Assembly (NCBI GenBank): GCA_000169115.1
Contig: AAVV01000006.1
Coordinates: 124,001 to 188,000 of the forward strand
Length of the DNA: 64,000 bases
Source of the DNA: a marine gamma proteobacterium HTCC2080
GTDB taxonomy: Bacteria > Pseudomonadota > Gammaproteobacteria > Pseudomonadales > Halieaceae
Direction: 5' to 3'
Below are positions 40,357 to 54,881 of this stretch, piece by piece; the first letter of the stretch is position 1, and each line of letters begins with the position of its first letter. Position numbers and translations under genes: made by a program. The notes below the pieces were generated by a model. The model saw only the letters and a program-made list of their open reading frames with translations, was not told where the DNA came from and searched no databases.

Positions 40357-40460
40357 TATCCACTCAAGAGTCTCTGAGCAAGAAGTGATTTCATAACGGA
40401 CCTGTCTGTAAACCTGCACGGACAGAGCCCGATCTTACAAGCAGGTTGGAGAAGATAACT

Positions 40461-40730
40461 ATGGCTTTAGATGCAGCCACCAAAGCCCAAATTGTCACCG
40501 ACTACAAGCAGTCAGAAGGCGATACGGGTTCCCCAGAAGTGCAAGTAGCACTGCTCACTGCAAACATTGAACAGTTGCAATCCCACTTCAAAGAGCACGC
40601 ACAAGACCACCATTCTCGGCGTGGCCTTATTCGTATGGTCAACCAGCGTAGGAAACTACTGGATTACCTCAAGAGCAAAGACACGGCACGCTATGCAAAT
40701 TTGATCAAGCGTCTCGGTCTGCGTCGGTAA
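40461..40730 (+). CDS. rpsO: 30S ribosomal protein S15
   Basis: S15 has 89 residues from the ATG at 40461 with GGAGA 6 nt upstream, starting [26 protein letters not shown] and [21 protein letters not shown] are the standard rRNA-binding segments. The 104-nt leader after truB can fold (CTGTC/GGACAG and CCTGC/GCAGG complementarities at 40401-40446), compatible with the autoregulatory leaders known for rpsO in other bacteria. Confidence 0.98.
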
Positions 40731-50405: not shown

Positions 50406-50923
50406 AGTGGGGTTCCAGGTATTTCGCCGAGATCAAGTTGGACTGCGCTCAGCCTAAGGCTGTGGGTAGAGCATTTCCCGAGTAATGTACCAATATCCAC
50501 ACCATTGGGCATTAGATATTCATTGCCTAGCAGGTCGGCGAGGGGCTTAAGTACAAAATCTCTTTGATATAAACCCGGATGCGGTAGTGTCAGCCGTTCG
50601 GTTTGTACTGATGTGTTGCCGAAGAAGAGTAAGTCGAGGTCAATGCAGCGCTCTCCCCAATGCCTCCTGCGAACCCGGCCCATAGTAGTTTCTATCTTAA
50701 GTAATGCTGTTAGAAGCGCCGCAGGGTCAGAGGTCGTATCAATCTGGGCGCAAGCATTTAAAAAGGGTGGTTGATCGCTGGGGCCCATGGGTGATGATTC
50801 GTAAACCGAAGATACTGCGATAAGGCAAGTGTTAGGTAGTGAGATCAAGGCCATGCAGGCCTGACGAAGTTGATAGGCAGGTTCATTAATATTTGATCCC
50901 AGCCCCACGAATGCCTGTGTCAA
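50402..50923 (-). CDS. folK: HPPK, 6-hydroxymethyl-7,8-dihydropterin pyrophosphokinase
   Basis: FolK pyrophosphorylates hydroxymethyldihydropterin before FolP. Of 173 residues, the signature RRHWGERCIDLDLLFF (about 86-101) carries the metal-binding Asp pair, and GLGSNINEPAYQL is the typical N-terminus. It overlaps pcnB by 4 nt and is followed by the kinase gene in overlap, so pcnB-folK-dNK is one transcription unit. Confidence 0.96.
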   Translation of the reverse strand: MTQAFVGLGSNINEPAYQLRQACMALISLPNTCLIAVSSVYESSPMGPSDQPPFLNACAQIDTTSDPAALLTALLKIETTMGRVRRRHWGERCIDLDLLFFGNTSVQTERLTLPHPGLYQRDFVLKPLADLLGNEYLMPNGVDIGTLLGKCSTHSLRLSAVQLDLGEIPGTPL

Positions 50924-52194
50924 TCCTCTTTCTTCCTTCTCGGCCTGCGGCGTCGGGGCGGTCTTGCCTCAGTTCGTGGTGGCGCGGTTCCTACTAATTC
51001 TGGGTGCTCTAACTGTTGTTGCTCCCAGAATTTACCCGCATTATCCAAGGCTTCTGATGACTCCTCGCGCAGAAGTAGTAAGTCATAAGCGGCGCGAAAT
51101 CTTCGGTCAGCGATCAGGTCCTTGACGCGTTTTGGTTGTTTTCTTTCGAGTCGGGTTTGTAGTTCCCAAATTTCTCGGACAGGGTAGGAGAAACGTTTTG
51201 GGATCGCCATTTTCTGGCAAGTTTCAGCAATGACTTGCTGTCCTGCGCTGTGAATAGCTTGGGTTGCAGCCTCGCCCCCCCGTATCAGGTTATCGGCGCG
51301 TGTCTGTACGACAGGCCAAAGCAGCGCGGCGAGCAAAAATGCGGGTGTTACGTGGCGCCCGTCTTTTACTCTCTGATCCGTGTTGCCCATGGCTTGAGTG
51401 ACGAGCTTTTTAAAGCGGGGTTCTTTTTCGATAAGGAATGCCGCATCAGGACATAAGCTATCGAGTAGCTGATAGCGCAAAAGTAGCAAAAGGGTAGGGC
51501 GCCCGTAGCCGGCCATGAATAATTTCAGGAACTCGTCAAAAAGTCGCGCGGGCGGTATTTCTGCTAGCAGTGGGCCACAGGCACTGATCGCCGACTCAGT
51601 CTCTGATTCGATATCAAATTGTAATTTTGCAGCAAAGCGAACGACCCTGAGCATGCGTACTGGGTCTTCACGGTATCGGGTTTGAGGGTCTCCCAAAATA
51701 CGCACCAGCCGGGCATTTATATCTTGATGGCCGTCCATTTGGTCCAGAACAGATTCGTCAATGGGGTTGTAATACATTGCGTTGATAGTGAGATCACGAC
51801 GGGCAGCATCTTCCGCCAAAGTCCCATAAACATTGTCCCGTAGTAGCAGCCCTTTGTCAGATTGTTTGCTGGCGCTCTTACCAGATCCTTCACTTACATG
51901 GGGACCTCGATAAGTTGTGACTTCTATAATTTCGCGCCCATCTCGGACATGCACGATTTGGAAGCGACGACCAATAATTCGCGCGCTTCGAAATAAGCCT
52001 TTTATTTCTTCTGGGGTCGCATTCGTTGCGACATCGAAATCTTTAGGCTTACCTCCGAGGATGAGGTCCCTGACAGCGCCACCAACAATGTAGCCCTCGA
52101 AATTCGCAGCACGGAGTTTCTCTACCACACGAATAGCGGCGGGGCTTACGTATTTGCGATTGACCTTGTGCATAGCCTTTGGGATTAACGACAC
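50920..52194 (-). CDS. pcnB: Poly(A) polymerase I
   Basis: PcnB adds poly(A) tails that promote RNA decay. The GTG at 52194 is preceded by AGAGGT 6 nt upstream and gives 424 residues; another GTG at 52212 and an ATG at 52173 are alternatives. The nucleotidyltransferase motif is YIVGGAVRDLILGGKPKDFDVATN (shown in family context: GG, then DxD), followed by RRFQIVHV, and the C-terminus is a run of Arg/Pro/Lys as in other PcnB proteins. It lies about 80 nt after the sRNA-like terminator. Confidence 0.95.
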   Translation of the reverse strand: MSLIPKAMHKVNRKYVSPAAIRVVEKLRAANFEGYIVGGAVRDLILGGKPKDFDVATNATPEEIKGLFRSARIIGRRFQIVHVRDGREIIEVTTYRGPHVSEGSGKSASKQSDKGLLLRDNVYGTLAEDAARRDLTINAMYYNPIDESVLDQMDGHQDINARLVRILGDPQTRYREDPVRMLRVVRFAAKLQFDIESETESAISACGPLLAEIPPARLFDEFLKLFMAGYGRPTLLLLLRYQLLDSLCPDAAFLIEKEPRFKKLVTQAMGNTDQRVKDGRHVTPAFLLAALLWPVVQTRADNLIRGGEAATQAIHSAGQQVIAETCQKMAIPKRFSYPVREIWELQTRLERKQPKRVKDLIADRRFRAAYDLLLLREESSEALDNAGKFWEQQQLEHPELVGTAPPRTEARPPRRRRPRRKKED

Positions 52195-52270
52195 TGAACG
52201 ACCTCTGGGCACTTTGGGCGGTAGTGTACTATCCAGCGGCGCTTAGGGGGAGTTTGGCTTTCAGACAACA

Positions 52271-52300
52271 GAAAAGAAAATGGGGAAGTAATCTTCCCCA
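52271..52300 (-). terminator. Intrinsic terminator of the CrcZ-like RNA
   Basis: On the minus strand TGGGGAAG-ATTA-CTTCCCCA forms a perfect 8-bp stem with 4-base loop, followed by TTTTCTTTTC. Confidence 0.85.
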
Positions 52301-52359
52301 CCCAGGTCCGTTCTTGCTTTATTATTGCTTTTGGGCCGCTTATTATTATTTGGGCTCTG
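52271..52359 (-). ncRNA. CrcZ-like small RNA candidate
   Basis: In Pseudomonas the catabolite-repression sRNA CrcZ is encoded between cbrB and pcnB and is transcribed by sigma-54 with CbrB. The same gap here, on the same strand, shows a sigma-54 promoter whose +1 would fall near 52359, a first A-rich tract AAATAATAATAAG (52351-52339), a second tract AGCAATAATAAAGCAAGAAC (within 52332-52310) and an intrinsic terminator ending at 52271. Both tracts repeat the AAN triplet pattern bound by Hfq/Crc. The RNA would be about 89 nt, much shorter than CrcZ. No sequence search was possible; position, promoter, tracts and terminator are seen directly. Confidence 0.65.
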
Positions 52360-52370
52360 CTGAGAATTGA

Positions 52371-52384
52371 GCAGGACATGTGCC
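52371..52384 (-). promoter_or_regulatory. Sigma-54 promoter of the CrcZ-like RNA
   Basis: Minus strand TTGGCACATGTCCTGCTC has GG at 52384-52383 (-24 element) and GC at 52372-52371 (-12 element) separated by exactly 10 nt, matching the sigma-54 consensus TGGCAC-N5-TTGC except for one base in the -12 box. A sigma-54 activator gene lies just upstream. Confidence 0.65.
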
Positions 52385-52458
52385 AAGAGACAAAACCATA
52401 TAAATAACATGGGTTTAGTGGTTTTTTAGTTGCTTTAGACAAAGTGGTTTAATAAAAA

Positions 52459-52487
52459 GTGTTACTTTTATTCCCCTTGGTGTTACT
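52459..52487. promoter_or_regulatory. Activator-binding box pair upstream of the sigma-54 promoter
   Basis: GTGTTACT occurs at 52459-52466 and again at 52480-52487, spaced 21 bp (two helical turns), 75-100 nt upstream of the -24 element. That is the normal distance for an enhancer-type activator site. TGTTAC/GTAACA half-sites are what I recall for CbrB in Pseudomonas. Confidence 0.5.
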
Positions 52488-52512: not shown

Positions 52513-53904
52513 TTAGCGGTGGCTGCGCTTACCAGGCTGGGTGCGCGGCAGGCCAAAGCGCTGACGCCTTTCCCAGAGACATTTTCGGCTGACTCCCAGT
52601 TTTTGAGCTAACTGTGTTTCGCTCATGGAGTCTTGGTGCTCAAGGACGAAACGCATAAAATAATCCTCCAAGGACAGCTCTTCATCAGGTGCTGAGACGT
52701 CCGCAGTGTCGATTTCTGGTGTAGAACCATTAATGACCGATAAGGGGGCCTCAGGGGTTTTACTTGAAGGCGTTAGGCCCATATCTATCGCCTCTATGTA
52801 ATCCCCTTCCGCCATTACCAAACCACGCTCTACGGCGTGCTCAAGCTCCCTAACATTACCGGGCCAAGGGTGATGAACTGCCGCACTGATAGCGGTTGTA
52901 CTTAAGGGGCGATGCTGGATGTCCAGCTTTTCCGCTAGAGCTTCCGTAAACCACTGGGCCATTGAGGCAATATCTATCGATCGTTGCCTTAAGGGCGGAA
53001 TTGTTAGGCTCAAGACGTTTATTCGGTAAAACAAGTCTCGCCTAAATTCATTTTGACTTGCCAGGGCCGATAAATCTCGGTGGGTCGCGCAAATGAGCCT
53101 GACATCCACCGTTTTGCTGCTGACAGCGCCGATTTGTCGAATCTCCCCTTCTTGAATAAACCTCAGCAGTCTTGCTTGTGCGGATTGAGGAAGCTCACCA
53201 ATCTCATCGAGGAAAAGGGTGCCGCCATTAGCAGCTTCGATGAGTCCCATACGGTTGCTGGTTGCGCCTGTAAAGGCGCCCTTCTCATAACCAAAAAGTT
53301 CCGATTCAATGAGTGATTCTGGGATTGCAGCACAGTTTAGAGCGACGAGAGGCCGCGCGTGCCGCCTACTTAAGTTGTGTACTCGCCTGGCGGTTAACTC
53401 TTTGCCTGTTCCAGTTTCTCCTTGAATAAGCACCGTTGAGTCTGTTCGCGCAACTTTCTGTATTTGTTCATCAAGTTTTCGTAACGTAGGGCATTGACCC
53501 TGAAAAAATTGGCGTGTGGCCTCGCTGCGCTGTTTGCCCGCAGGTGCGGCGAGACCTTGGCGGGAGAGCGCAGCAGCGACTACATTCAGCAAATCGTCGT
53601 CTGAGCAGGGTTTCGCTAAATAATCGACGGCACCCGCTTTCATCGAGTCAACCGCTGAGCGCAGGCTGGCGTAGTTGGTCATGACAATGACCGGCACTGG
53701 GCTGGCTGAACGAATAAGTTCAGCACCGCTGGCGCCTGCAAGTTTAAGCTCGGTCACGATGAGGTCAAACTCAGCAAGGTTGTATCGGGTCTCGGCTTCC
53801 TGAACTCCCGAAGCCTCGGCAACCTTATAGTCCCTGGCCTCTAAAACTCGGCGTAAGGCTTGTCGTTGAGAGGGCTCGTCATCAACCAGTAATATCAGTG
53901 GCAT
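52513..53904 (-). CDS. cbrB: CbrB-like sigma-54 response regulator with Glu at the phosphoacceptor site
   Basis: This is an NtrC-type activator of 463 residues from the ATG at 53904 ([15 protein letters not shown], colinear with CbrB). Receiver domain residues 1-120: acidic DDE at 8-10, switch Thr in VMTNYAS, Lys in LAKP. The phosphoacceptor position reads [15 protein letters not shown]: residue 52 is Glu, where CbrB has Asp. AAA domain: GETGTGKE (Walker A), GAFTGA (sigma-54 contact), [12 protein letters not shown] (Walker B). C-terminal helix-turn-helix: [19 protein letters not shown]. Its gene sits between gluQRS and pcnB as cbrB does in Pseudomonas, but no cbrA kinase gene is present. The longer TTG start at 53934 is less likely. 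Confidence 0.9.
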
Positions 53905-53969
53905 ACAATCTGAATCCGTTGCGAAAAAAGGCAAAGAACGTGACCTACCACATTACTTTAAGTAACCAA

Positions 53970-53994
53970 GTAACAAAATGGGATTATTTGTTAC
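53970..53994. promoter_or_regulatory. Inverted repeat upstream of cbrB
   Basis: GTAACAAA (53970-53977) and TTTGTTAC (53987-53994) form a perfect 8-bp inverted repeat with a 9-bp spacer; another AGTAAC lies at 53961-53966. It is in the cbrB leader and touches the gluQRS stop codon. The GTAAC half-site is the same as in the boxes near the sRNA, suggesting autoregulation. Confidence 0.5.
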
Positions 53995-54881
53995 CTAGGT
54001 ACCCGAAGGGGATCCCATCGAGACCTGCTCCACTCGAGCACAGACTCGGAATCTTTGAGTCCAGAAGGGGGGCTGGGCTGTCCTAAGGCACGCAGCGCCG
54101 CCCTCAAGTTCTGAGCTGGATGGCTGTTGTCCAACGCCGCAGCACCCTGTTGTTTACTTAGTTTGGCGCCGTATTGATCCTTTATGACCGGCAGGTGCCC
54201 ATATTCAGGCGACGATAGTGCCAACCTGCGCTGTAAAAAAACTTGCCGGGGAGTTGAGTCCAGCAAATCTCTCCCTCGAACTACCTGTGTCGTTAAGGGA
54301 GAGGCATCGTCGACCGCTGCAGCGAGCTGGTAGGCGTACAACCCGTCCCGACGTCGGACGACAAAGTCGCTGAGTTGTTGGCCTAAATGCCAGTTTTGGC
54401 CGCCCAAAACACTGTCATTCAAAATGATGACAGTGTTTTGGGGTACCTTTACCCTGATGCTTGTGGGCTCTGTGGTGGTGAAACTTTTGTTGGCGCAGTC
54501 ATTTTGGCAGCTGCCATTAGCGCCAAGCATGGCGCGGGTGCAGCCACAATGAAAAAGGTCGCCGAGCTCGTCCAAAGCTTTTAGGGCTTGCTCGTAGCGA
54601 TCAGTGTGAGCACTTTGATACTGAATGTCGCCATCGAATTGAAATCCATGAGTTTCAAGGCTCATTTGGATAGCGCCTACCGAGCCTTTTACCGCTCTAG
54701 GGGGGTCAATGTCGTCGATTCTCAAGTGCCATAGCCCGCCCTGAGCGCGGGCATTCAGAAAACTTCCCAAGGCTGCCAGTAAAGAGCCCGCGTGCAAAGG
54801 GCCCGTAGGCGAGGGCGCAAAGCGCCCTATAGCGTTGCAGGAGCTAAGCGTATTGGGGGAGCTTATGGCTCTGCCGCCCAA
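53991..54881 (-). CDS. gluQRS: Glutamyl-Q tRNA(Asp) synthetase
   Basis: GluQRS glutamylates queuosine on tRNA-Asp; it is a truncated glutamyl-tRNA synthetase without anticodon domain. Of 296 residues, the HIGH-like motif is RFAPSPTGPLHAGSL (about 20-34), the KMSKS-like motif is KLSKQ (about 237), and a zinc site is suggested by CGCTRAML followed by CQNDC. It lies 24 nt after dksA, matching the dksA-gluQ order of Pseudomonas and E. coli. Confidence 0.95.
   Translation of the reverse strand: MGGRAISSPNTLSSCNAIGRFAPSPTGPLHAGSLLAALGSFLNARAQGGLWHLRIDDIDPPRAVKGSVGAIQMSLETHGFQFDGDIQYQSAHTDRYEQALKALDELGDLFHCGCTRAMLGANGSCQNDCANKSFTTTEPTSIRVKVPQNTVIILNDSVLGGQNWHLGQQLSDFVVRRRDGLYAYQLAAAVDDASPLTTQVVRGRDLLDSTPRQVFLQRRLALSSPEYGHLPVIKDQYGAKLSKQQGAAALDNSHPAQNLRAALRALGQPSPPSGLKDSESVLEWSRSRWDPLRVPR

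Follow-up and report, generated by a model that had tools for sequence, protein, structure and literature searches.

A predicted short CrcZ-type RNA gene beside a CbrB lacking its kinase in the marine gammaproteobacterium HTCC2080

Does the gap between cbrB and pcnB in HTCC2080 hold a small RNA gene of the CrcZ type and, if so, what would switch it on? According to the available part of a review from 2022, CbrAB is found in no family but Pseudomonadaceae, and the gene order cbrA-cbrB-crcZ has been described in Pseudomonas and Azotobacter alone (PMC8871633). The window, by which we mean the whole 64,000-nt stretch of DNA analyzed, carries on its minus strand gluQ, cbrB, the gap and pcnB in this order, as read from its open reading frames (Table 1). 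For this gap, the initial annotation had proposed a CrcZ-like sRNA gene outside Pseudomonas, with a promoter, two AAN tracts and a terminator in the right order and an RNA of about 89 nt. All of these elements were located on the minus strand in that order, and the RNA predicted here has two tracts and a length of 87–91 nt, its 5' end being inferred to lie 12 nt past the -12 C. The proposal is supported by the locus, the distances of the CbrB subsites and the promoter, the tracts, the terminator, a lone sub-threshold Rfam match and the presence of genes for Hfq and Crc. These sequence features confirm that the cbrB-pcnB gap holds a putative sRNA gene of the CrcZ type.

Table 1. Positions of the predicted RNA gene, its elements and the neighboring genes in the window
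Feature	Position	Strand	Basis or remark
CrcZ-type short sRNA gene (predicted)	52359 (predicted 5' end) to ~52269-52272 (3' end)	-	RF01675 sub-threshold match, genus conservation
sigma-54 promoter TGGCACATGTCCTGCT	52370..52385	-	GG at 52384/52383, GC at 52372/52371
CbrB upstream subsite R2, GTAACA	52460..52465	-	R-subsite layout of P. putida crcZ, from the available part of PMC6296734
CbrB upstream subsite R1, GTAACA, 21 nt from R2	52481..52486	-	R-subsite layout of P. putida crcZ, from the available part of PMC6296734
AAN tract 1 AAATAATAATAAG (candidate Hfq distal-face site)	~52339..52351	-	sequence reading, alignment
AAN tract 2 AAAAGCAATAATAAAGCAAGAAC (candidate Hfq distal-face site)	52310..52332	-	sequence reading, alignment
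Conserved element GGACCTGG, directly 5' of terminator stem	52302..52309	-	GRCYTGG counts, alignment
Intrinsic terminator TGGGGAAG-ATTA-CTTCCCCA then TTTTCTTTT	52272..52300	-	8-bp stem, 4-nt loop, T-rich tail
cbrB, NtrC-type activator, Glu at phospho-acceptor position	52513..53934	-	start maybe ATG 53904, not TTG 53934
gluQ	53991..54881	-	~60 nt from cbrB, no cbrA in between
pcnB	50920..52212	-	longest open frame; true start may be further in

The Rfam CrcZ model (RF01675) matched the window at 52363-52265 on the minus strand (21.0 bits, E 7.9e-4), taking in the whole predicted RNA and covering model positions 275-380 of 398. Over the 3.6-Mb genome, this locus was the sole match at E <= 0.01 (23.8 bits, E 3.1e-4). 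Both the local and the genome-wide score lie far below the gathering score of 95 bits, and no CrcZ was found at Rfam gathering scores. We use the name CrcZ-type, rather than calling the RNA an Rfam CrcZ member, because homology rests on its place, its promoter layout and the intermediates described below.

Single elements are not telling. The promoter pattern alone is not rare (3 occurrences in the 64-kb window vs 2.55 expected), runs of at least four AAN occur nine times on the two strands of the window, and the predicted RNA folds with unremarkable stability (z -1.56; 13 of 200 shuffles equally stable). What exceeds chance is the order of the elements plus their conservation. In an alignment of the gap from 17 loci of the window's genus, reduced to 14 rows by dropping near copies so that rows were <90% alike, the RNA reached a mean pairwise identity of 0.83, the sigma-54 box 0.70 and the CbrB sites 0.69, against values of 0.29, 0.43, 0.32 and 0.29 for the four spacer segments. 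Lack of conservation of the promoter and tracts in close relatives, which the initial annotation had named as grounds for giving up the idea, is overcome by these identities (RNA 83% vs spacers 29–43%) and by the sigma-54 promoter pattern being kept in 16/16 same-genus relatives read. It is hardly credible, then, that the locus is a relic or a chance assembly with no function: single elements do arise by chance in the window, and the lineage has lost cbrA, an F1-like site and most of a stem described below, but the RNA shows 83% identity within the genus against 29% in its neighbors.

How far does this arrangement extend? Sampling of the order covered 145 genomes, and pcnB was identified in 144; its upstream region was fetched for 120 of the 144, the window locus was taken from the window itself, and the remaining 23 were unread. 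In 105 of these 121 loci, from 38 families, cbrB lies upstream of pcnB; among the 16 without it, five are cut by contig ends. The addition of 16 same-genus and 24 other same-family genomes gave 145 genomes with cbrB upstream of pcnB, 134 of which (34 of the 38 families) carry the sigma-54 promoter pattern. The gene cbrA adjoins cbrB in 113 of the 145, is absent in 30 and cannot be told in two. RF01675, run over the 145 sampled genomes of the order, matched 34 at E <= 0.01 and seven above the cut-off, four of them in family f21, taken as Pseudomonadaceae from scores >300 bits, and three in f2. The spread is thus not visible from the Rfam model alone, because it misses many promoter-bearing loci, and the order-wide locus grades into Rfam CrcZ. 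Since cbrB precedes pcnB in 38 family-level groups, with the promoter in 34, the circuit has a broader distribution, and probably a greater age, than has been stated.

The promoter and the activator appear to have been kept together. According to the available part of a study of P. putida, CbrB binds there at subsites F1, R1 and R2, spaced 20–25 bp and lying upstream of the sigma-54 promoter (PMC6296734). The window has the sigma-54 promoter with R1 and R2; an F1-like GTTAC, which lies near -120 to -125 in the listed cbrA-bearing relatives of the window's family (f1), was not found in it. Across 124 loci, a set in which a few named records repeat genomes, at least two GTAAC sites occur 30–200 nt upstream in 94, vs a mean of 1.75 in letter shuffles, and their spacings are chiefly 21–23 nt, a layout as in P. 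putida. Moreover, in the 145 genomes with cbrB upstream of pcnB, the GAFTGA (or GSFTGA) motif by which CbrB contacts sigma-54 occurs together with the promoter in 132; the two are jointly missing in eight and mismatched in five, which supports the view that CbrB and the crcZ-type promoter belong together. In f15, three genomes with a broken GAFTGA (G614, G624 and G619) lack the promoter too, and G622 has an intact GAFTGA yet no promoter.

Some loci depart from this pattern. At L136, L138, L153 (f43), L130 (f9), L117, L142 (f46), L139 and L103 (f18), GAFTGA is lost or changed and the gap is without a sigma-54 promoter. The f43 loci retain CbrA, the acceptor Asp and AAN motifs in the gap, which hints that another sigma factor may have taken over. 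L060 and L065 (f42) have cbrA and cbrB, followed by a 140-nt cbrB-pcnB gap without a promoter, that is, CbrAB without an adjacent sRNA. At the other extreme, the gaps of L096, L110, L127 and L106 measure 1.6–2.2 kb and contain two to three sigma-54 promoters plus as many as 17 AAN motifs; they are probably tandem arrays of CrcZ-type RNAs.

The initial annotation had suggested that the RNA might be a minimal version of the system. A simple terminator finder predicted 135 units in the 124 loci, 86 of <=150 nt and 49 longer; these lengths are estimates, because the finder takes the first good stem. Short units (~80–150 nt) are the rule in f1, f4, f9, f11, f13, f14, f24, f30, f31 and f32, and also occur among downstream units of f47 and as single cases in f17, f26 and f41; long units prevail elsewhere. 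In three loci of the Pseudomonadaceae-like f21, the predicted RNAs measure 373–377 nt with four runs each, compared with ~90 nt and two tracts in the window. The small size therefore holds, but it is not peculiar to this genome, since short RNAs are usual in its family and in about ten others; nor is the locus simply shrunken, since the sensor kinase is absent and CbrB is changed at its phosphorylation site, as discussed below. Tandem copies are probable in several loci because two or more promoters are present.

By CbrB, the nearest named loci are those of a Halioglobus MAG and of Pseudohaliea rubra (56%); the Halioglobus record and G145, a genome of f1, have identical gap lengths and promoter letters. 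Halieaceae is thus the most likely lineage of the window. A model (R1) of the short type, built from rows filtered for the motif GRCYTGG and including the window, matched 39 of 41 genomes within f1; over the class it matched one of 369 genomes, the window's own, the model being specific to the short type and the filters stricter. At L046, L047 and L048, pcnB is preceded by another unit, which has AAN tracts and a GACCTGG terminator resembling that of the first. Such a second unit is present in 26 of the 41 f1 genomes, with starts ~100–650 nt apart, and the window has one unit. The second f1 unit may be a differently driven, CrcY-like copy, because no sigma-54 box was seen in the three loci read.

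These units bear on whether there is a separate RNA at all. In the window, ~80 nt separate the end of the terminator from pcnB, both being on one strand, as would suit a sigma-54-driven leader or attenuator of pcnB. We consider this very improbable: the cbrA-bearing f1 loci read have a longer stretch between terminator and pcnB, maybe with a second unit, the stretch after the terminator is unconserved in the genus (29% identity), and the order-wide locus grades into Rfam CrcZ.

The short RNAs share more than tracts and a terminator. In an unfiltered count, GRCYTGG was found near the end of 76 of the 86 short units, in 10 families, including all 43 from f1. It is present in three of the 49 long units; all three come from f47, one being a named record, and in them a first terminator was probably passed over. 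In f9, GACCTCC stands in its place. A short-type alignment was built from rows filtered for GRCYTGG (72 distinct rows, 53 aligned); the invariance of the motif in it is partly due to selection, because the rows had been picked for it, and the AAN tracts and the stem are likewise conserved there. RNAalifold, run on 40 sequences (f1 plus two named records), recovered only the terminator stem and no compensatory change, because MAFFT misaligned the partners of a second stem. This stem 1, of 4–5 bp, tends to flank tract 1 in f1; it has at least 4 bp in 29 of 44 sequences, with 24 distinct stems. Its mean score over the 44 sequences was 10.49, vs 8.64 (sd 0.36, highest 9.92) in 300 partner swaps, as scored by a script with segment boundaries chosen by the analyst. 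In the window, stem 1 is weak (3 bp).

It might be tempting to regard the short RNA mainly as a base-pairing sRNA, whose AAN tracts are held by Hfq and whose GRCYUGG is the seed. The element precedes the terminator stem in 76 of the 86 short units, from 10 families, beyond what a terminator needs, and the substitutions it allows (A to G, C to U) preserve wobble pairing with a fixed CCAGGUC. However, these are common changes anyway, and the exact element is absent from 10 of the 86 short units, including all of f9, and from the long units, three excepted. Nor was a target found in the window: CCAGGTC, the complement of the element, occurs once (6.7 expected), at 52302-52308, where it is antisense to the RNA itself, and a search for AANAANAA near the starts of 51 window genes gave two matches, both inside genes. 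We regard base-pairing as unlikely to be the main role, and it is not exclusive of a decoy role.

In Pseudomonas, CrcZ lifts the repression that holds back the use of less favored carbon sources. A decoy RNA of the CrcZ type would act on Hfq and Crc, and the initial annotation had asked whether the genome encodes both. It does. Hfq is 83 aa long, and there are two close Crc-family proteins, L002 and L004. The best matches of L004 are the Crc structures 4jg3 (203 bits) and 4f1r (202), followed by 2myi (197) and 2jc5 (145), the last taken by the analyst as the nearest true exonuclease entry. The entry 2myi is labeled exodeoxyribonuclease III, and we take it to be a Crc structure. L002 was rejected as Crc: it is a paralog that keeps the catalytic residues, and it is closest to the exonuclease 2jc5. 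L004 has lost these residues and retains KRRD at the positions of Crc 139-142 (K139-E142), residues that the available part of one source links to RNA and Crc-Crc contacts (PMC6422490); the Crc contact residues K155, E193, R196, R229 and R230 are not kept. By these comparisons, L004 is the Crc ortholog, catalytically degenerate by its predicted residues.

What, then, would drive the RNA? In the window, no CbrA, a transporter-kinase fusion, lies next to cbrB: gluQ and cbrB are ~60 nt apart, vs ~3 kb with a ~1000-aa frame in most loci read. In the genome, none of 10 SSF-domain (transporter) matches falls in an open frame >596 aa, and a same-family CbrA query found, at E <= 1e-20, only kinase halves, with no full-length match. 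As judged from these searches, CbrA is absent from both locus and genome. A transporter-kinase-like frame of up to ~1330 aa that matches the transporter half of CbrA is present in f15, f27 and f41; the cbrA-bearing G040 and G106 also have such a frame.

CbrB itself has changed. In the window it retains GAFTGA, and its acceptor Asp is replaced by Glu, so that the receiver has no phosphorylatable acceptor. The Asp is kept in 113 of 113 cbrA-bearing genomes, a count from which nine named records were dropped (at least three seem to repeat counted genomes), and an aligned Glu occurs only without cbrA, in three lineages. Among the 30 cbrA-less genomes, the acceptor is Glu in 12, Asp in 11 (the pocket being damaged in 10 of these) and Gly in five, and two (f46) are without an alignable receiver; the total of 12 accordingly leaves out G086 (f46). 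Glu was found in the window, G220, G189 and G223, in G115, G012 and G054, and in five genomes of f15. G078 (f41) is the lone cbrA-less locus with Asp and an intact receiver pocket. Fisher p values of 5.5e-11 (nine named records included) and 1.8e-9 ignore kinship and are not to be read as probabilities. A CbrB tree was built from 65 rows with the receiver excluded; f46, the other loci that lack GAFTGA and most repeats within a family were omitted. The best tree has five cbrA changes, two of them forced by well-supported branches, and three Asp-Glu changes, and a paired sign test is without power. The association between cbrA and the acceptor rests on few independent events, and in f1 and f15 the contrast between cbrA-bearing and cbrA-less genomes is seen inside one family.

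Closer sampling shows receivers at several stages. In the window's genus, four of 17 loci, the window and its three nearest relatives, have Glu with the pocket T and K kept, seven have Asp with T changed to A, and six have Gly with K changed to R, among them G236, for which cbrA cannot be told; G207 gave no CbrB match at threshold. In f15, where seven of 25 genomes in a wider sample gave no match, all 14 readable loci of genus g19 have Glu and no cbrA, two more being cut by contig ends; in genus g383, G628 has Asp with cbrA, and G629 is cut. In f13, 10 of 12 genomes were matched, with Glu in four, Asp with a decayed pocket in two, the receiver missing in three and one cut; in the three without it (G604, G605 and G606), it is missing although gluQ lies 195–235 nt upstream. 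Across the cbrA-less lineages, then, some receivers have decayed or vanished, and the promoter and the RNA mostly stay.

The change of Asp to Glu at a phospho-acceptor is the classic phosphomimetic change, as exemplified by NtrC D54E. In the available text of one source, Glu is described as a partial phosphomimetic that may act through the conserved T and K; this is accepted in many response regulators but has been disproved in some pseudo-receivers, which can work through other inputs (PMC12632262). Phosphomimicry cannot be the whole story in the genus, because 13 of its 17 loci are without Glu.

We propose that the genus lost CbrA and that its CbrB no longer needs a kinase. Asp to Glu would mimic phosphorylated CbrB in the least altered members of the genus, the receiver decaying afterwards, and selection would have kept GAFTGA, the promoter and the RNA while the unused receiver decayed. 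CbrB bound at the two GTAACA sites would open the sigma-54 promoter, and the two AAN tracts of the RNA would be offered to the distal face of Hfq (with Crc), withdrawing Hfq/Crc from target mRNAs. Because CbrB would be freed from CbrA, the decoy RNA is expected regardless of carbon supply, and catabolite repression might be left relieved, or be set only by the levels of Hfq/Crc and of the RNA. That this short decoy RNA is driven by a kinase-free CbrB and made without carbon sensing seems to us reasonably probable. From sequence we infer transcription, Hfq binding, Hfq/Crc sequestration, constitutive CbrB activity and the physiological outcome, as well as a decoy RNA that is locked on.

The main rival keeps the same decoy RNA and has CbrB controlled without phosphorylation, through a different partner, the amount of CbrB itself, or the supply of sigma-54 or IHF, with Glu as a step of decay rather than a mimic. 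The decay of the receiver in the genus and in f13, and its deletion in three f13 genomes that retain GAFTGA and the promoter, would fit such a regulator, as would the other inputs of pseudo-receivers (available part of PMC12632262). However, it is Glu, and not another residue, that appears in three separate cbrA-less lineages, and the T and K that a mimic would need are still present in CbrB of the window and of the three relatives nearest to it. We find this rival somewhat unlikely though serious, and a CbrB freed by Asp to Glu and then subject to receiver decay appears the likeliest account.

With slightly less than even confidence, we further suggest that at least three lineages (the window's Halieaceae genus, f13 and f15), with genomes mostly <3 Mb (some incomplete), separately lost CbrA and locked the decoy circuit on: Asp to Glu would have come first, and the receiver would have decayed or been deleted afterwards. 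Heterotrophs with small genomes might thus abandon catabolite repression repeatedly along one path, and the short RNA may also pair with mRNAs via GRCYUGG.

Compared with Pseudomonas CrcZ (RF01675; with CrcY and CrcX), the window's locus is alike in its place between cbrB and pcnB, the R subsite distances, the sigma-54 promoter, the AAN tracts, the intrinsic terminator and the presence of Hfq and Crc in the genome. It differs in the 3' GRCYUGG, which was not found in f21, in scoring below the gathering score, in having no CbrA and in the Glu of CbrB. Like NtrC D54E and other phosphomimetic regulators, the window's CbrB is an NtrC-family activator with Glu at the acceptor, and it retains T and K; unlike D54E, the Glu here is natural and found in kinase-less lineages, and constitutive activity is predicted from its sequence. 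CbrB also resembles bacterial pseudo-receiver (aspartate-less) regulators in its orphan, non-phosphorylatable or decayed receiver, with the difference that here the former kinase, the target promoter and the stages of decay can be traced in one conserved locus. No report of the locus outside Pseudomonadaceae was found among the literature matches listed, which were judged largely by titles and the beginnings of abstracts and cover subscription literature thinly. The absence of CbrA and the replacement of the phospho-acceptor Asp of CbrB by Glu appear to be new.

Natural RNAs of ~90 nt give an idea of how small a part of CrcZ might be enough. Repeated kinase loss with Asp to Glu offers a natural experiment in which a two-component switch may turn into a constant activator, and gives a clear prediction on catabolite repression in these bacteria. 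Elsewhere in the window, at 40398-40517 on the plus strand, lies a ribosomal S15 leader just at the Rfam threshold (39.6 bits).
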